In this document: piece by piece, positions 15,101-39,867 of the stretch
How positions within the stretch are numbered: position 1 is the first letter of the stretch
Layout: every line of letters begins with the position of its first letter
Assembly (NCBI GenBank): GCA_002170535.1
Contig: NHDW01000008.1
Span: 86,365-147,662 of the forward strand
DNA length: 61,298 nt
From: Methylococcaceae bacterium TMED69
GTDB taxonomy: Bacteria; Pseudomonadota; Gammaproteobacteria; Ga0077536
Direction of reading: 5' to 3'
The notes under the pieces: model-generated
What the model saw: only the letters and a program-made list of their open reading frames with translations
Told to the model about the DNA's origin: nothing
Database searches by the model: none
Made by a program: the position numbers and the translations under genes

Positions 15101-16510
15101 ATGAAAACTAATTTAAAAAAAATAATCTCGTCAATCCCGTCTATAGATCAGTTATTAAGAGACGAAGAAGGCGATAGATTGCAAGATAAATTTGGCCGAA
15201 AGACTGTTAAATCTAGTTTAAGGCTCCTTATTTCTGAAATGAAACAGGAGATTCAAACCGGTGAGCTAAAATCAGTTAGTAAGGGAGATATATACCAAAG
15301 ACTTGAGCTAATCTGTGAAAGCACTAACCCCGAGATCAAAGAAGTTTTAAATTTAACAGGAATAGTTGTGCACACGAATTTAGGAAGATCTTTGTTTCCT
15401 GAGGAAGCTGTAAGATCAGCAGTAAAAGTGATGGAGAATTTTACTAACTTAGAGTTTGATTTATCGTCAGGGAAAAGAGGGGAGAGAGAGCGATTTTTGA
15501 TTGCAAATATAAAAGAGTTAACGGGTGCCGAGGATGCGACATTTGTCAATAATAATGCGGCTGCTGTTTTCTTAATCTTAAATACATTCGGAATGACAAA
15601 AGAAGTTATTATTTCTCGCGGAGAACTGGTTGAAATAGGTGGTCATTTCAGAATACCTGAGATTATGAGAAAAGCTGGCGCTCAAATAGTGGAGGTTGGC
15701 ACTACAAATCGAACCCACTTATCAGATTTTTCTGCTGTTATTAATGTTAATACTGGATTGATCATGAAGGTCTATACCAGTAATTATGAAATTGTTGGGT
15801 TTACTAGTAGTGTTGATGAAAAACAATTGGCTGAACTTGCAAAAAAAAACAATGTACCATTTATAGTCGATGCTGGCAGTGGTAATCTAATTAACACAAC
15901 TTTTGCTGGTTCTACCACAGAAGATAGGGTGGAACAGATCCTTGCGAGAGGTGCTGATCTAGTGACTTTTAGTGGAGACAAGTTATTAGGAGGTCCTCAG
16001 TGCGGGATTATTGCAGGTAAATCAAATTTTATTAATGAGATTCGGCAAAACCCTGTAAAAAGGGCCATGCGTATTGATAAAGTGACTGTTGCTTCAATGT
16101 TCGAAGTTCTCCGGGTCTATATGGACGAACACAAAAAAATTAAACAAAAAATTCCAACCCAGAGATTTTTAAATCGGTCGCCTGATGAGATTAAGAAAGT
16201 TGTAAATCATGTTTTAAGAGCAGTTTCTTCATCTTTTGATTCTGTGGCATCGGCTGAGCTTACTGAATGTAAAAGTCAAGTTGGTAGTGGCGCGCTACCT
16301 GTTGACTCTTTGCCGAGCTATGGGTTGAAGATCACTCCGTTAACTGAAAAATCAATATCGATAGAAAAACTAAACTCTATGTTGCGAGGATTGCCTCATC
16401 CCGTGATTGGCAGAATCACCAAACAATGCATTGTTTTAGATTGTCGATGTTTGGAAAGCGCAGACAAACTAATTGAACAGCTTAAATTGTTGGGACAAAT
16501 AGAACTTTGA
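15101..16510 (+). CDS. selA: L-seryl-tRNA(Sec) selenium transferase
   Basis: SelA converts seryl-tRNA(Sec) to selenocysteinyl-tRNA(Sec) with selenophosphate, using PLP. At 469 aa it is close to the E. coli enzyme. The PLP lysine lies in SGDKLLGGPQCGII (Lys294). The N-terminal tRNA-binding helical region, NLTGIVVHTNLGRS and the NNNAAAVFL substrate loop are also present. The gene overlaps selB (stop TGA within TTGA), so the two are coupled. No selD is in the window, so selenophosphate must be made elsewhere. Confidence 0.95.
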   Translation: MKTNLKKIISSIPSIDQLLRDEEGDRLQDKFGRKTVKSSLRLLISEMKQEIQTGELKSVSKGDIYQRLELICESTNPEIKEVLNLTGIVVHTNLGRSLFPEEAVRSAVKVMENFTNLEFDLSSGKRGERERFLIANIKELTGAEDATFVNNNAAAVFLILNTFGMTKEVIISRGELVEIGGHFRIPEIMRKAGAQIVEVGTTNRTHLSDFSAVINVNTGLIMKVYTSNYEIVGFTSSVDEKQLAELAKKNNVPFIVDAGSGNLINTTFAGSTTEDRVEQILARGADLVTFSGDKLLGGPQCGIIAGKSNFINEIRQNPVKRAMRIDKVTVASMFEVLRVYMDEHKKIKQKIPTQRFLNRSPDEIKKVVNHVLRAVSSSFDSVASAELTECKSQVGSGALPVDSLPSYGLKITPLTEKSISIEKLNSMLRGLPHPVIGRITKQCIVLDCRCLESADKLIEQLKLLGQIEL

Positions 16511-18411
16511 TTTTTGCAACTGCCGGACATATTGACCACGGAAAAACGCAGTTGGTTCGCTCTTTAACCAACGAAAATACTGATACCTTACCTGAAGAAA
16601 AGAGAAGAGGTATGAGTATCGATTTGGGATTTGCCTACACAGATCTAGGCGATGGTGATATTACAGGATTTATTGACGTGCCAGGTCACGAGAAATTTGT
16701 TCATACCATGGTGGCGGGGATTGGTTGCGTTGACCTTGCTATTCTGGTCATAGCTTTGGATGATGGGTTGATGCCGCAAACCCATGAACATATCAAAATT
16801 TTGGAGCTTCTTGGAATTGAAAAAGTAGTTGTAGCTTTTACTAAGCTAGATCTAGTTACAAATAGTAGAGCAATGGCGGTAAGAGACTGTTTTTCTGGAT
16901 TATCGCGGGGAACATTTCTTGAAAATGCATCTAGTGTCATGGTTTCAAACAGTACTGGTGCTGGCATAAGTCAACTCAAGATGATGCTGGTCAACTTGAA
17001 ACAATATGTTAGGGCCAAGGCCACTTGCGGTAATTTCAGATTGGCAATAGATAGGAAATTTTCACTGCAAGGCGTTGGGAAGGTTGTAACCGGTTCAATA
17101 TTTTCTGGAGAAATTAATATCGGAGACACAGCCATGCATTTGCCCTCCAAAACAATGATAAAAGTAAGAGATCTCAGGGTCCAAGGTGCCCCTGCTAGCC
17201 GAGGGAAAACAGGCGACAGGTGTGCATTAAATATCAGTGGTAGCAACCTTGGGAGAATTGAATTATCAAGAGGAGATTGGATCGTTGCGTCAGAAATGGA
17301 TAATTTATCAAAAAATCTTATAGTAGAAGTCCCAGTTAATCTTTTTAAAGGAAAATCGGAAAATCTATCTGTTCATTTTCATCTTGCTTCTCAACACGCA
17401 ACCGGAAAAATTTTTTTGCTTAAATCTTTAAAAGGTGATGGCAAGTTCAAATTTGCCAAAGTCACGTTAACAAAGAAAATTCATGGTGTCAGAGGTGATA
17501 GATTTATCATAAGAGATCAATCCGCGAGGCACACTATTGGAGGGGGCACTCTAATTGACCCTGCGCCCGACTTGAGCGAAATCACTAGTAAAAAAAGAAA
17601 GAGAGTATTTTACCCTTCGATTAAAAGTATCGAATCTGTTTTTGATAGTATGTTGCGCGAAAATGTTACCGGAATTAATCTTGATATCTTCAAAAAAAAA
17701 TTTAATCTCCGAGTCGATGAGTTAAATAGAATGACTGATGATCGATCTATGATGCATTTGTCGCTCAAAAATTGCCAGGTTGTTGTTGACAAGAAAAATT
17801 ATGAAAAAGTTTGTTCGCAGGTTGTCTCGGCATTAGAGCGTTTGCATTTAGATCGTCCAATGAAGTCAAACTTCCACATAGGAGAAATTTTCGAAGTTAC
17901 CCAGCAGCATTTTGAATTTGACAGGCGGCTTTTCCTTTCAGTTGTCTTAAAAACACTTGTGGAAAATAATATTATTGAAAATAAGAAAAATCAGTTTGCG
18001 CTTAAGAACTATAAGCCAAAATTGGATAAAGATAACCAAAGTAAATTTAATCAAGTGAATCTATATTTTGGTTCAAAATTTAATCAGATTTATACGATTC
18101 ATCAGTTGACCGAAAGAACTAATATCGACAGTAATGATATCTCTACGTTTTTAAAAGAGAGTGTAAGGTCAGGGATGATTGTCCAGATTAGTGATAAACG
18201 ATACTGTTCAATCGATTTGGTCGCAAAGGCAAAGAAAATATGTACTTTGCTAGTTCAACAGAACCCTAGCAATTCTTTTACCGTCGCAGATTTTAAAAAT
18301 AATTCGTCGTTGGGAAGGAATCAAGCAATTGAATTACTGGAGTATCTAGATAAAACCAACTTCACCTTGAGAGTAAACAACGCGCGAATTTTGAGAAAAA
18401 ATCGAGGTTGA
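16507..18411 (+). CDS. selB: Selenocysteine-specific translation elongation factor
   Basis: SelB carries Sec-tRNA to the ribosome at UGA codons followed by a SECIS hairpin. It begins with TTG inside the selA stop. The GTPase motifs are GHIDHGKT (G1), DVPGHEKFVHTMVAG (G3) and TKLD (G4). EF-Tu-like domains follow, and the C-terminal 230 or so residues are lysine-rich winged-helix repeats that bind the mRNA hairpin. The length of 634 aa is normal. The tRNA-Sec gene starts 25 bp downstream, giving a compact selA-selB-selC locus. Confidence 0.95.
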   Translation: MIFATAGHIDHGKTQLVRSLTNENTDTLPEEKRRGMSIDLGFAYTDLGDGDITGFIDVPGHEKFVHTMVAGIGCVDLAILVIALDDGLMPQTHEHIKILELLGIEKVVVAFTKLDLVTNSRAMAVRDCFSGLSRGTFLENASSVMVSNSTGAGISQLKMMLVNLKQYVRAKATCGNFRLAIDRKFSLQGVGKVVTGSIFSGEINIGDTAMHLPSKTMIKVRDLRVQGAPASRGKTGDRCALNISGSNLGRIELSRGDWIVASEMDNLSKNLIVEVPVNLFKGKSENLSVHFHLASQHATGKIFLLKSLKGDGKFKFAKVTLTKKIHGVRGDRFIIRDQSARHTIGGGTLIDPAPDLSEITSKKRKRVFYPSIKSIESVFDSMLRENVTGINLDIFKKKFNLRVDELNRMTDDRSMMHLSLKNCQVVVDKKNYEKVCSQVVSALERLHLDRPMKSNFHIGEIFEVTQQHFEFDRRLFLSVVLKTLVENNIIENKKNQFALKNYKPKLDKDNQSKFNQVNLYFGSKFNQIYTIHQLTERTNIDSNDISTFLKESVRSGMIVQISDKRYCSIDLVAKAKKICTLLVQQNPSNSFTVADFKNNSSLGRNQAIELLEYLDKTNFTLRVNNARILRKNRG

Positions 18412-18436
18412 GCCACCATTCTGTTAATATCGACGT

Positions 18437-18528
18437 GGAAGAGCATCGCCTCCGGTGAGGTGCCCGGTCTTCAAAACCGGTGAAACGTTTACTAAAACGT
18501 TTGGTGGGTTCGACTCCTACCTCTTCCG
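18437..18528 (+). tRNA. selC: tRNA-Sec (anticodon TCA)
   Basis: A 92-nt gene aligned readily with E. coli selC. The acceptor is GGAAGAG/CTCTTCC, the D-arm contains CTCCGGTGAGG, the anticodon stem CCGGT/ACCGG frames CTTCAAA with anticodon TCA (18471-18473), and T-loop TTCGACT is canonical. The long variable arm is an 8-bp stem AAACGTTT/AAACGTTT with loop ACTA. CCA is not encoded. The acceptor plus T stem adds up to 12 bp (7+5, position 8 being an unpaired C) rather than the usual 13. Confidence 0.95.
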
Positions 18529-18599
18529 TAAATTCATCGTTTTGATTACGTGAGCGTAATGGTTGGTATGGACGTATATACAACAAAAAGGAAAATAGA

Positions 18600-23385: not shown

Positions 23386-23928
23386 CTAGACTTGTTTAGA
23401 TTTTATGGGTTCACTGGGATTAAAGACAAGCAGTAAGATCTCATTGAAAAATTGTTCTGCTAGTTTTTCTAGTTCCTCTTCTGTTCTGTCCTGAATTGGA
23501 TGTGTAATAAAAACTCCGTCAGCATCAAATCCCAATGATTTAGCATGGCTTTCCGCTGATGCTCTGAATGGTTCAGATGCTACGAAACCACCTGGGATGC
23601 CCCGTTCATCTAATTCTCTAATGTCCTGCAAACTGCAAGACGTACATGAACCTCAGTCGGCTAATGCCTGAACCACAACATCTACCTCTGAGGTTATTTT
23701 TTGAATGAGGTTGATTGGAGCAGGCCGAGTAAATGTTGGTTTTTTATATCGTTTTGTTTGCACCCCTTTTTGGACGAAAAGCTTTTCAATCCTATCCAAA
23801 AAAACGTCTCCCTTCGCTTTTGAGATGTCAATCAGACCGACTGTTAAACTCGGTGTTGCCGTGATTTTTTCCAACGGCTTCTTGAATATTGGTTCAAGCT
23901 CGCCGGTTGGGTCAAGTAAGTATTGCAT
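23386..23928 (-). CDS. UGSC-family selenoprotein, read through in-frame UGA (Sec92)
   Basis: The track splits this gene into 91 aa (23653-23928) and 81 aa (23386-23631). The single frame continues through TGA at 23653-23655 and gives a 180-aa protein reading ALAD-U-GSCTSCSLQD. Sec92-Gly-Ser-Cys95 is the motif that names the UGSC (seleno)protein family, and a further Cys98 follows. A hairpin of SECIS type sits 11 nt after the UGA. SelA, SelB and tRNA-Sec are encoded 5 kb away. The ATG overlaps the upstream stop (TAATG) and has AAGGAG upstream. The family is thought to be redox-active; no reaction is established to my knowledge. Confidence 0.9.
23623..23641 (-). promoter_or_regulatory. SECIS element of the UGSC selenoprotein gene
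   Basis: On the minus strand, exactly 11 nt after the UGA, the mRNA folds into GUCUUGC-AGUUU-GCAGGAC: a 7-bp stem (one U-G pair) with a 5-nt loop holding a GU. Bacterial SelB-binding hairpins such as that of E. coli fdhF have the same 11-nt spacing and a G-U in the apical loop. Confidence 0.82.
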
Positions 23929-25349
23929 TAGTTCTTTATCTCCTTTGTTACTGGATTAGTACCAGACTCTCCATTCATTAACCATCCAGGCATGACTGCC
24001 GAAAAAAGCCCTGCTGCACCGCCAGCTCTTATGAGAGTTATACCAGAACTTCTAAATTTTGGTACATTTTTCTTCTCTGTTTCAAGGTTTTCTACAGAAT
24101 CATTTGTGATCATGCCAAAGTCGCCTCCCGCAGGAACTGTGGTTGCTTTGTAAAGGGCTTCAGCAGTTGATTTTTTATCCCACCCGTTTCTATCAAAAAC
24201 GTCGCCATGTTCAGGTCCTATGATTACTATAGTATCCGACGCATTTGCCATGTCAATATGGTTAATTATTTTTAGGCTTTCTGATATTGATCTAATTAAA
24301 CCTTCGGGTTCGCGGGAAATTTGATCTATTACGCCTACAGGGCCATCAGACGAGAGTAGGGTGACAGTAGACTCGTTTTTATCGAAACCATTGTCTTCAG
24401 CGAGTGTTGTCCATGGAGTAGACTCATCCTCCGCTATGCAGAACCCTAGTTTAGAAGGTGTACCAAAAGTTGCCTGATCGACCTCTTGTGGTTTTCCACC
24501 GCCAACATTTCGTATTGTAAGTTGTAGGGCGCGCCCAATGGTTGAATTAGCACGATTGCCTTGTCCTAATACGTTACCCTTCCAATTCATATTAATTCTT
24601 TTTCTTATATCACCATTAACAACAATTATTGGACCGGACAGCCACGTTGTCGCTAGGAGTCCGTGAAGGCAATACGCTGGATCCAGCGCCGCTTCAACAG
24701 CCGCAATTACTACTGGTAAAAACTCGGGTTTACAACCAGCCATCACAGCATTTATTGCAACCTTCTCAATCGTACATGGTTGCAGGTTCGGCGGCATCAA
24801 ACCAAGTAGTTCTGAGGGTTCTCTTTTGGTGCCCTGTAACATTAAAAAAACTCTTTCTTTGGTTGGTGGTACTACTGGCAGCCCGTCAGACCAGCCCCTT
24901 TCAAAACAAAACTCAATTTCATCTTTAAAACTGTGCACTTGTAAATTTCTAGATCTAAATTCGATACCTCCAAATTTGACCGCTAATTTTTCAAAAACTC
25001 CTGGTTCAACTGATTTTGAACCACAACCTGGTTTCATGTCTGGTAGTGTGTAATTTTCCTGAGAAAATTTAAATAATTCTTTCCATTCCTTCTTGTCCCA
25101 TCCTACTAGCCGTACGGTTTCAGTGTTTTTTTCTAGTTTTATGGCCGTCGGAACAATTTCAATTTCATGATTGAAGGATATTTCAAGGTCATTGTCCTCT
25201 TGAACATTTAAACTAGGGAACAACTTGCGGTCATCTTGAACGATAATTTCTAATGAGGGAACTTTTTTTTGGATATCGGCGAGTAACGGGCGAATTAATT
25301 CGCAAGTCGGACAATCATATTTGAGAAAAACAAGAACTCTATTATCCAT
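23928..25349 (-). CDS. Thioredoxin-fold domain fused to a large uncharacterised domain, UGSC partner
   Basis: A 473-aa protein. Residues 1-90 are thioredoxin-like with the redox motif CPTC (Cys13-Cys16) directly after the first strand. The remaining part (about 105-473) is a domain I cannot name. It contains CFERGWSDGLPVVPPT, AGCKPEFLPVVIAAVEAAL and NVGGGKPQEVDQATFG, and several spaced cysteines. The stop codon overlaps the start of the UGSC selenoprotein by one base, so the two are translated in a coupled way and probably work together, the Trx domain perhaps reducing the Sec-containing partner (inference). No signal peptide, so cytoplasmic. Confidence 0.75.
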   Translation of the reverse strand: MDNRVLVFLKYDCPTCELIRPLLADIQKKVPSLEIIVQDDRKLFPSLNVQEDNDLEISFNHEIEIVPTAIKLEKNTETVRLVGWDKKEWKELFKFSQENYTLPDMKPGCGSKSVEPGVFEKLAVKFGGIEFRSRNLQVHSFKDEIEFCFERGWSDGLPVVPPTKERVFLMLQGTKREPSELLGLMPPNLQPCTIEKVAINAVMAGCKPEFLPVVIAAVEAALDPAYCLHGLLATTWLSGPIIVVNGDIRKRINMNWKGNVLGQGNRANSTIGRALQLTIRNVGGGKPQEVDQATFGTPSKLGFCIAEDESTPWTTLAEDNGFDKNESTVTLLSSDGPVGVIDQISREPEGLIRSISESLKIINHIDMANASDTIVIIGPEHGDVFDRNGWDKKSTAEALYKATTVPAGGDFGMITNDSVENLETEKKNVPKFRSSGITLIRAGGAAGLFSAVMPGWLMNGESGTNPVTKEIKN

Positions 25350-25351
25350 GT

Positions 25352-27034
25352 TTATAATCTCTTTGCTCTTCCGTGCTCTAACTTTGTATCGCTATGTTGC
25401 CATGCTTTTTTAAACCTGTCGGTGGCCTGTCGCATTTCTTCAGTATCCTTGGTTTGGGATGTGCCTTCAACAATACCTTGTAAAGCCCAGCCATTTTCCG
25501 GATGTCTCCTTAAATCTTCCCAGAATATCATAGTAGCCTCTTGCGCCCTGCCTAGTTCCAGAAGAAGTGAACCTAACTCTCTTCGTACGGGAAATCGCCA
25601 TTCAGGTGGTTCCATATATTTTAAATTGTCTTCGGCCATAATCGCCTGATGATAGAGAGCAATTGCTTTTTCGATTTCGCCCGAGACAACGGCTATTTCC
25701 GCGGCAAGCACATTTTTTGCGATCAATAAAATATCTTGGACTGAATTTGAATATATTTGCATATGCCGAATTTCTTCCATAGAAGTTAATTCTTTCAATT
25801 TATTAAATTCGCTTGAAGCTTTTCGCAGTTCATTAGTGTGTACATAAGCAGTACCTTTAACAAAGTGCTCAAGCCCTTTTATAAGTTGTGAGTCACTATT
25901 TTCGTCTTCCGTTGCTAAAATCGTGTCCCATTTTGCAAATATTCTATTGGTTAGCATTGGTAGGACGTATCTCCCTTGAGCCATCAAGCTTTTGCCGATC
26001 TTATTCTCAGCTCTATTCGCAATGCGGTTAGCATATTTGATTGAGTATTGGTAATTGCCTTGTTCGATATATGCGTACCAAATGAAATCGTCCGCGTGCG
26101 CAATGCTTGATTTAGAGCTCATTGGAAGACTTACAAGATGCGTCGTTGGAGGAACTTTCCATTTTTTAGAAAACTGTTCGGCCGCACGGATGGCATCTAA
26201 ATTTTGTTCAATAGATTTCTGGTATTTCCCAGTTCTTATATAAATGTGGGCAGGCATGTGTACCATATGAGCCACAGATGGCATTGTGTTAGCTAACCGT
26301 TCTGCGTGTGGAAGAGCTATTTGAGGAGTTTGAGAGTCTTCGTAAATATGAATAAATAAATGATTTGCCCCGGGATGATTCAGATCACTTATACATGCCT
26401 CATTTAGTGCATTCACGGCTTCCATAGTACCGCGGCGGGGGGAGCCATCAGGTGTCCAATAATCCCATGCATTTTCTGTCATGAAGGCTTCGGCAAACAG
26501 AGTTTTAATATCTGAGTCAAAGGGAAATTTTTCCCGAAGTTCACGCATAGCTTGGGTATAACTGCGATCTTTATCTCTTTGGTCTCCATTTAAAGGTAGG
26601 TAATATTTACTAAGCGCATTAACAAGTTCTGTAACTATAGGGCTTGCTTGTGATCTTTGCTTTAGTGCTTTTTGAATCGCTTTGAGTCCCTCTTTTTTTG
26701 GGTCATCTTTGAAAGCTAGATAGCGACTGTTTGGGTTACCTTTGGCATTTAACGCTATACCCCACAGTGCTGCTGTACATGTTTCATCTATTCTTAAAGC
26801 TGCATCAAAGGAAATAAGAGCATCCGCGAATTGAAAGCCATAAAACCAGTTTAGGCCTTGATCAATATAAGGTTGAGCTGCCCGAGCACATGAACTAGAG
26901 ATGGCAGTATATTTAGGTTCGGTGGTAATTAATGGAACATTTGTTTCTGATGAATCTGCTTTTGAGACAAAGGCGAATGGTATAAGAATACAGTAGAGAA
27001 AAACGAAAATTTTGGAAACTATTTTCTGGTACAT
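25352..27034 (-). CDS. Secreted TPR-repeat protein
   Basis: About 560 aa, with a signal peptide (IVSKIFVFLYCILIPFAFVSKADS) when started at ATG 27034 (MYQK). The track uses ATG 27049, five codons earlier. TPR-like helical pairs recur through the mature protein: GLNWFYGFQFADALISFDAALRID near the N-terminus and LELGRAQEATMIFWEDLRRHPENGWALQGI near the C-terminus. The gene overlaps the DCC gene upstream and ends 2 bp before the thioredoxin-fusion gene. It is likely a periplasmic or envelope scaffold; its partner is unknown. Confidence 0.78.
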   Translation of the reverse strand: MYQKIVSKIFVFLYCILIPFAFVSKADSSETNVPLITTEPKYTAISSSCARAAQPYIDQGLNWFYGFQFADALISFDAALRIDETCTAALWGIALNAKGNPNSRYLAFKDDPKKEGLKAIQKALKQRSQASPIVTELVNALSKYYLPLNGDQRDKDRSYTQAMRELREKFPFDSDIKTLFAEAFMTENAWDYWTPDGSPRRGTMEAVNALNEACISDLNHPGANHLFIHIYEDSQTPQIALPHAERLANTMPSVAHMVHMPAHIYIRTGKYQKSIEQNLDAIRAAEQFSKKWKVPPTTHLVSLPMSSKSSIAHADDFIWYAYIEQGNYQYSIKYANRIANRAENKIGKSLMAQGRYVLPMLTNRIFAKWDTILATEDENSDSQLIKGLEHFVKGTAYVHTNELRKASSEFNKLKELTSMEEIRHMQIYSNSVQDILLIAKNVLAAEIAVVSGEIEKAIALYHQAIMAEDNLKYMEPPEWRFPVRRELGSLLLELGRAQEATMIFWEDLRRHPENGWALQGIVEGTSQTKDTEEMRQATDRFKKAWQHSDTKLEHGRAKRL

Positions 27035-27426
27035 GATTGTCGTCTCCAAGTGTATTTTCTTAGAAATAAAAAAGCCTCATAACAAATGTCTAAAAATATA
27101 TTAAAGATTGGAATTCTCATAATTTTCGCAAATCTACTCAATTTTGGAACCCTAGCCCAAATTTCTATAAAAGCATCTGCTCCAATGAATAGATTTCCAT
27201 TACTGTCTGCAACGTGAAGCTTTTCCAAAGCCTTATTCTTATCAATTCTGTCATCCTCCATATTGCTAATCGCCTCCCAATTAGCACCTTCCGAATGAAT
27301 CTTTCTTTTATAAAAATTTATTTCCCGTGTACACAAAGGGCACTGGTCGTCGTAATATACAGTAATAGTTGGTTGTTTAGATTGTGATTCTCTCAACGGG
27401 TTGGGCTCCTTTTTAGACAGTTTCAC
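27019..27426 (-). CDS. DCC-family (DUF393) thiol-disulfide oxidoreductase-like protein
   Basis: A 135-aa protein with the family signature YYDDQCPLC (Cys29-x-x-Cys32) after the first strand, followed by the FIGADAFIEIWARVP block typical of DUF393. The family is presumed redox-active through the CxxC. It is the first gene of the four-gene minus-strand operon that ends with the UGSC selenoprotein, which strengthens the idea of a thiol/selenol electron relay. It overlaps the TPR gene by 16 bp or more. Confidence 0.85.
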   Translation of the reverse strand: MKLSKKEPNPLRESQSKQPTITVYYDDQCPLCTREINFYKRKIHSEGANWEAISNMEDDRIDKNKALEKLHVADSNGNLFIGADAFIEIWARVPKLSRFAKIMRIPIFNIFLDICYEAFLFLRKYTWRRQSCTRK

Positions 27427-30655: not shown

Positions 30656-31291
30656 CTAAGAATCTTCGTTTAAGATAGAGGCGGTTTGTCCACTGTGCCC
30701 AAAACATGCGCCTGCCGTCATTTCAACTGCTATAAAACAGCTTTCTAAAATTGAATCATTTGAGCAGCCAGCATTTTTTGCGGCCGTAAGGGTTGAATCA
30801 ATCAAAGACCGATTCGCACCAAGGGTCATGAGGCCAGCATTGATCGAAAGCATAGCTAAATTTTGGTCGCTAGTTTGATCGCGGCAATTAAGCAAAAATA
30901 TTTCGCATGAATCGTATTTATTTCTGTGAATAGCGTTACTATCAACTTGGCTATAATTAGATTCCTTTTCAAGCCATTTACTTGTCGCCTTGAGAGTAGC
31001 GAATGTATTGAATGCAGCGGAGCTCGCGCCTAGCCATGTCGCCTCTGATATTTGCTTATCTGATGCAGCTGCTTTTTTGGCAAGTCTCACGTGATACTCA
31101 ATACAGTAGGCGCATTTGAGTGTGTGGGCGCAACATACAGCTATAAGCTCCTTTTCTTTGAGGGAAAGAGCGCCTGATTCAAAACAATTTAAAGCAAATT
31201 TGTTAAAAGCTTCATATTGGTGAGGCGCAAGTTCAGCAAACAAGGTTGTATTTTCAAGATTTTTATGTGAATAAAGCTCAGTTTTTGACAT
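30656..31291 (-). CDS. AhpD-like/carboxymuconolactone decarboxylase family protein
   Basis: A 211-aa protein with two AhpD-like halves. The first has the redox motif KCAYCIEYHV (CxxC then His three residues on), the peroxidase-type active site of AhpD. The second half (SINAGLMTLGAN-x(n)-CFGHSGQ) has lost the CxxC. The likely role is peroxidase-like thiol chemistry. Ordinary Cys rather than Sec is present here, although the window encodes a Sec system. The gene is transcribed divergently from the class III aminotransferase. Confidence 0.82.
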   Translation of the reverse strand: MSKTELYSHKNLENTTLFAELAPHQYEAFNKFALNCFESGALSLKEKELIAVCCAHTLKCAYCIEYHVRLAKKAAASDKQISEATWLGASSAAFNTFATLKATSKWLEKESNYSQVDSNAIHRNKYDSCEIFLLNCRDQTSDQNLAMLSINAGLMTLGANRSLIDSTLTAAKNAGCSNDSILESCFIAVEMTAGACFGHSGQTASILNEDS

Positions 31292-39015: not shown

Positions 39016-39867
39016 TTAAATTAATCCGGCTTTTTTTAATTTTAAAATAATCGGCGCTGGTTCCGTAGGATGCCATATAGTTTCTTTTGGTTGTTGATGC
39101 CATATTAGATCTAAATGTTTGATGTAACCAGCTCTATCAGCCTCTTCAAATAATTTTAGTGTAGAAAGAAGAACTTTTCCCTGTGTATCCTTATCCCCAA
39201 CATCACCAAAAGGCCTACCAAAGGGATGCTCAATTGCGGCGATTCTGGGCATCCCCACAATTCTTTGGAACTCCCATATCATATTCAACGTTACCGTTGG
39301 AATACCAATTTTTTCAATGGCTCGGGCTACCAATCCAACGGATCGGCAACAATCTGGTCACACAGGAGCAAGAATTGCCAAGTCGACATTATCTTGTTTC
39401 ATGGATTTGGCAATTTCAGGACCTGAAAAGTTTATCAAGTGCGAAGTGTCGCTGCCTTGATATCCCATGATTGAGTAGTGAAATTTACTGATTGAGCCAA
39501 CAATTCCCTTCTGAAGAAAGTCTTCAATTATATCGATTGGAAGTGCCACATTTAGATCTTTTTTGATATATGTGGTATCAATGTGAAGATGGTTGACATT
39601 TAGATGCTCAATTTTGGACCCATGCTTAATTAAGCGCCAAGATGGGTCACCCCAGTCCCCTTTTTTTCTCTCTGTTTCCATATCAAATGGTGTGTCGGTT
39701 TCCATAGAAATACCCGCTGTTGTGACTAGGGATACTCTAGATTTCGAAATTTTTTTGGACCTAGGAGTCCACGGTATTGACTTTTGCTCCCGTCCATTTT
39801 CAATCATGTCTAACACGAACTTTTTGATCATTTTCCCGGTAAATCGAAAAGAATCTACTTCCCTCAT
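39016..39867 (-). CDS. Glycine/proline reductase selenoprotein B-like protein, read through in-frame UGA (Sec170)
   Basis: The track splits this into 169 aa (39358-39867) and 105 aa (39016-39333). The single frame continues through TGA at 39358-39360 to give 283 aa. The junction reads LAPV-U-PDCCRSVGLVARAIEKIGIPTV, where GrdB/PrdB-type proteins have U or C before P-x-C and a GLVAR-x-IE helix. The second half (MVARAIEKIGIPTV onward) has the family's HPFGRPFG motif. Sec170-x-x-Cys173 is a selenylsulfide-type active site. A SECIS-like hairpin follows the UGA at 11 nt, and GGAGA precedes the ATG. True glycine or proline reductases need other subunits that are absent, so it is probably a distant, stand-alone relative of unknown reaction. 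Confidence 0.9.
39330..39346 (-). promoter_or_regulatory. SECIS element of the GrdB-like selenoprotein gene
   Basis: On the minus strand, 11 nt after the UGA, the mRNA forms CCGAUCC-GUU-GGAUUGG: a 7-bp stem (one G-U pair) and a GUU triloop. Spacing, stem length and loop GU match the hairpin in the UGSC gene and the fdhF-type bacterial SECIS. Confidence 0.82.

Follow-up and report, generated by a model that had tools for sequence, protein, structure and literature searches.

A 61,298-nt stretch of the genome of Methylococcaceae bacterium TMED69 (contig NHDW01000008.1, positions 86,365 to 147,662; hereafter the window) carries two short ORFs that lie in the same frame and are separated by a TGA. 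Is this a decayed gene, or an intact selenoprotein gene in which the UGA is read as selenocysteine (Sec), and what might its product do? We addressed these questions with curated profiles, homologous loci, gene neighborhoods and structure prediction.

A full-length UGSC-family gene with an in-frame UGA

The initial annotation had joined the two ORFs (91 and 81 aa in a mechanical ORF list) into a single 180-aa product at 23386-23928. Both coordinates and translation were confirmed; the strand, which had been omitted, is minus. The gene begins with an ATG at 23928 and ends with a TAG stop at 23386-23388, and its single in-frame TGA (23653..23655, read from 23655 to 23653) is codon 92, giving the context ALADUGSCTSC (Sec92-Gly-Ser-Cys95). 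When TGA is translated as U, the product scores above the cut-offs of both curated models of the UGSC family, only slightly for NF041046 (130.5 bits, cut-off 125) and with 117 bits against a cut-off of 25 for PF24696, which bears out the family assignment made earlier. Based on composition, the probability of finding 88 more open codons past the UGA is ~0.0025. Because both cut-offs are passed and an open frame of this length is so improbable, the read-through is not a product of chance.

The family itself has been known since 2008 (PMC2398784) and is covered by both models, so that the emphasis originally placed on novelty was too strong; the window gene adds another member. The ‘UGSC-containing protein’ of PMC2398784 has the same length, the same Sec-Gly-Ser-Cys motif and a bacterial SECIS (bSECIS) element after the UGA, and the window copy differs from it in nothing essential. 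UGSC proteins are among the most abundant selenoprotein families of aquatic metagenomes, with 255 sequences in the GOS set (PMC2398784) and 8.2% of selenoprotein genes in a further study (PMC9402790).

The Sec column in homologous loci

Homologs were collected via the gene directly upstream (described below), yielding 80 loci, 70 of which have a UGSC gene and 69 of which are readable at the Sec column; the remaining one is cut by a contig end. The column contains TGA in 65 loci, TAG in two and TGC in two. A separate search of the class returned 15 UGSC matches, 14 with one TGA and one with Cys. All readable homologs thus have Sec (UGA or UAG) or Cys at position 92, as the initial annotation had proposed to check, and Cys95 is invariant. 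The two TAG codons occur in Geodermatophilus and Blastococcus (Geodermatophilaceae; loci L065 and L098), where the Sec-type tRNA has the anticodon CUA (L106, L105) and is labeled tRNA-Pyl by ARAGORN. This recoding has already been published, with UGSC proteins named among those affected (PMC5330540). No SelB reaches the cut-off in the genomes of four Cys-form UGSC genes (L070, L095, L016, L020), nor in those of the two partner-linked Cys forms (TGC); the more distant Cys form L006 comes from an incomplete genome with a partial SelB match. Ahead of the UGA the protein is 58-61% identical in amino acid sequence to four relatives, and past it 51-61%, with similar dN values; by these sequence measures, selection is equally strong on both sides.

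A conserved hairpin and the Sec machinery

A SECIS-type hairpin had been noted 11 nt after the UGA, and we located it at 23623..23641 on the minus strand (read from 23641 to 23623). It starts 11 nt past the UGA and has the sequence GUCUUGCA-GUU-UGCAGGAC, an 8-bp stem closed by an apical GUU loop. Compared with shuffled sequences the window hairpin is only mildly unusual (z = -1.6), and support for it comes from conservation across homologs rather than from its stability. The eight-pair stem is conserved across 66 Sec homologs, which make up 51 distinct rows: 93.4% of cells in the distinct rows are paired, three pairs have changed on both sides, and none of 500 shuffles matches this. Sliding the partner strand of the stem along the homolog alignment destroys the pairing. 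Neither the apical G nor the apical U varies (66/66 rows). The codon in the apical loop is AGT in 57 and TGT in 11 cases, which together make up all 68 Sec forms, while both partner-linked Cys forms have TCG. The window stem has a U-G pair at a site where G-U or G-C prevails among relatives, and distant fused UGSC members have other hairpins. An Rfam search with E-values up to 10 returned only chance matches.

SelA (15101..16510; TIGR00474, 530.9 bits), SelB (16507..18411; TIGR00475, 371.3 bits) and a tRNA-Sec with anticodon UCA (18436..18529; ARAGORN) are all encoded on the plus strand; the initial annotation had already placed them in the window. SelD (227 bits) is found outside the window in the same genome, within a 757-aa open frame that is probably an Ndh-SelD fusion (L023, G000:C8:62479-63387). 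An in-frame UGA with a conserved hairpin directly downstream is therefore accompanied by SelA, SelB, tRNA-Sec and SelD in one genome, features expected of a bacterial selenoprotein, and decoding of the UGA as Sec is, judging from these genes and the RNA element, helped by both. The window also encodes a protein of the AhpD/carboxymuconolactone decarboxylase family (30656-31291, minus) that is kin to selenium-associated AhpD families but has Cys (CAYC).

The split in the ORF list would fit a pseudogene or an assembly error, with the UGA terminating translation and the second half persisting as a relic. We reject this reading, which we regard as vanishingly improbable: 65 other loci have a UGA at this site, which also excludes a sequencing error at 23653-23655; TAG occurs at this position in a lineage whose tRNA-Sec reads TAG; selection is equal on either side of the UGA; and the hairpin that follows it is conserved. 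The earlier statement that the gene has no sign of decay is likewise supported. The window region 23386-23928 thus almost certainly encodes a full-length UGSC-family selenoprotein with Sec at the UGA, and it is an example of an intact selenoprotein gene that an ORF list cuts in two.

A constant partner gene upstream of UGSC

Most of the new functional information comes from the linked upstream gene, which the initial annotation had missed. This partner gene (23928..25349, minus) encodes 473 aa, and its stop codon overlaps the UGSC start (TAATG). Searches with the protein returned nothing from Pfam at E-values up to 10 or from NCBIfam at E-values up to 0.001. Residues 1-95 form a thioredoxin domain with a CPTC motif and a VPT turn, and PDB thioredoxins match the profile of this N-terminal part (A7) with a best E-value of 4.8e-6. 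The C-terminal domain (342 residues), which lies outside Pfam and NCBIfam, is strongly conserved, with the motifs SDGLPVVPPT, EKVAINAVMAGC and GNRANATIGRA. Its structure is predicted with high confidence (pLDDT 91), and a fold search with this model retrieved no close solved structure; it returned class I fumarases and cyclic amide hydrolases of the Toblerone fold, whose TM-scores of 0.2-0.3 are too low to be informative. A PDB sequence search with the partner profile gave nothing credible.

Of the 369 genomes of the class, six contain the partner family and the very same six contain UGSC, with the two adjacent or fused. UGSC lies directly downstream of the partner in 66 of the 70 UGSC-bearing partner loci, an order also seen in L007 (same family as the window) and L020. 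Other genomes have UGSC ahead of the partner domain, either as a separate gene or within one fused chain, with fusion into one chain found in three genomes. Seven partner loci have no neighboring UGSC, and their genomes hold UGSC elsewhere. Strict co-occurrence together with fusion argues that UGSC and the partner, its constant companion, form one functional unit. In the fused members, and in several unfused distant ones, the partner lacks the thioredoxin domain.

The other genes of the same-strand run do not share this constancy. A TPR protein with an apparent signal peptide (25352..27049, minus; PF07719, 31.3 bits) lies 2 nt upstream of the partner gene, and the run begins with a DCC1-like thiol-disulfide oxidoreductase (27019..27426, minus; PF04134, 73.5 bits). 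Clustering of the neighborhoods of related loci recovered no conserved genes beyond the UGSC-partner pair, and the TPR protein was accordingly not a conserved neighbor.

Predicted fold and distant relatives

In the AlphaFold2 model of UGSC (pLDDT 93, pTM 0.87), helices alternate with five strands, and Sec92 sits just before the helix spanning residues 93-108. Among solved folds, flavodoxins and DJ-1 come closest, with low TM-scores, and there is no thioredoxin among the best 50 PDB fold matches. Sequence searches of the PDB with UGSC gave nothing credible, and a search of viral contigs with the protein found zero relatives. A thioredoxin-like fold has been suggested for UGSC (PMC2398784). The UxxC motif of UGSC does resemble the CxxC motif of thioredoxins, but the fold of UGSC is predicted to be Rossmann/flavodoxin-like, and the published proposal finds no support in the model; a real thioredoxin domain is present instead at the N-terminus of the partner.

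The window encodes a second selenoprotein, of the PrdB/GrdB-like type (39016-39867, minus; 283 aa), with Sec170 at 39358-39360 in the motif APV-Sec-PDCC and a match to the GRDB domain (PF07355, 47.7 bits) in the part preceding the UGA; in ORF lists it appears as two pieces of 169 and 105 aa. The genome encodes yet another selenoprotein, the third (L123, G000:C2:84118-84705), which is likewise PrdB/GrdB-like and has one TGA (LVPM-Sec-PVCHQ). Since a gene of this type is present in the window, we compared the UGSC profile with that of six PrdB/GrdB-like proteins. The hhalign score was 42.6 (probability 80%), with Sec aligned to Sec over a similarity that spans only 67-95 columns; the best of 60 column-shuffled controls scored 20.4 and the reversed profile 13.6. 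No match of UGSC to PF07355 (GRDB) was found by hmmscan at E-values up to 10. Thus, UGSC has in common with PrdB/GrdB (PF07355, TIGR04483) the UxxC motif, the aligned Sec and a similar surrounding stretch, whereas the rest of the GRDB domain is missing from it, and profile comparison revealed no similarity of the partner to either UGSC or PrdB/GrdB. Based on these alignments, the Sec half of UGSC likely shares its origin with the Sec half of PrdB/GrdB-type proteins.

Proposed function of the UGSC-partner pair

The Sec of PrdB is the nucleophile toward a substrate that another subunit activates. PrdB/GrdB offers a working analogy for UGSC, a Sec nucleophile with its substrate held by another subunit, and it is by this analogy with PrdB that we would place the attack of Sec92 on a partner-held substrate. 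We suggest, as a reading with a little under even chances, that UGSC and the partner form one Sec-dependent reductase of a small molecule, recharged by the CPTC domain of the partner. UGSC would be a Rossmann-like domain, kin to the PrdB/GrdB-type Sec half, with Sec at the N-terminal end of the helix that follows the third strand. Sec92 would attack a small substrate, organic or perhaps peroxide-like, that the unannotated domain of the partner helps to hold; once the product has left, Cys95 would resolve the adduct by forming a selenenyl sulfide with Sec, which the partner would reduce back through its CPTC thioredoxin domain. The recharging step cannot work alike in all members, because the partner is without the thioredoxin domain in the fused and several other distant ones; there, free thioredoxin would serve. 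More tentatively, the two proteins could each supply one half of a Sec-dependent reductase of an undescribed class, a small relative of the glycine and D-proline reductases, in which the partner would bind a small molecule for attack by Sec and the built-in thioredoxin domain would recharge the enzyme.

The main rival to a reductase mechanism is a role as a thiol peroxidase or general antioxidant, in which Sec92 would reduce peroxides, Cys95 would resolve, electrons would come from the thioredoxin domain of the partner, and the second partner domain would only scaffold or target. The UxxC motif next to a thioredoxin-containing partner and the predicted flavodoxin/DJ-1-type fold, with its reactive residue after a strand, are consistent with such a role, as is the grouping of UGSC with redox selenoproteins in 2008 (PMC2398784). 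The second partner domain is, however, more constant than the thioredoxin domain, which is more readily explained by a substrate site than by a scaffold, and the relation found for the Sec half is to PrdB/GrdB-type proteins, not to peroxiredoxins. We consider the peroxidase role possible, though somewhat doubtful.

A role of the pair in handling selenium or metals (e.g., by reducing or sensing oxyanions of selenium or sulfur), as opposed to carbon metabolism, is suggested by its position near selA-selB in the window and by the recurrence of selA and selB as neighbors in about ten loci. Most loci, in contrast, have no selenium gene nearby, and Cys-form UGSC is kept in genomes without SelB, which argues that the function of UGSC is independent of selenium decoding; we regard this role as improbable.

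The present results go beyond the known family in three respects: the constant partner, the PrdB/GrdB-like Sec half, and the predicted Rossmann/flavodoxin-like fold. In the non-subscription literature searched, we found no description of the partner family, of the relation to PrdB/GrdB or of the revised fold. The thioredoxin-bearing partner, the fusions, the Rossmann-like prediction and the link to PrdB/GrdB would move UGSC from an ‘unknown redox protein’ to a testable two-component reductase, and the partner together with the likeness to amino acid reductases provides a first testable idea of UGSC function.

Fused, possibly exported and expanded UGSC genes

A ‘UGSC/Unknown_1’ fusion selenoprotein, a UGSC domain joined to an uncharacterized domain, was reported in 2008 (PMC2398784, Fig. 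S1A). This arrangement is probably the same as the UGSC-partner fusions found here. Genome G332 has nine UGSC copies (L004, L008-L015); every copy contains a single TGA, and the partner domain follows in the same frame. In several of them an apparent signal peptide is present, along with motifs such as Sec-Ser-Ser-Cys or Sec-Ser-Thr-Cys, which suggests exported selenoproteins. Genomes G753-G758 (L083, L088, L092, L097, L100, L102) have 3-8 UGSC matches each, nearly all with TGA, which represents an expansion of the family.
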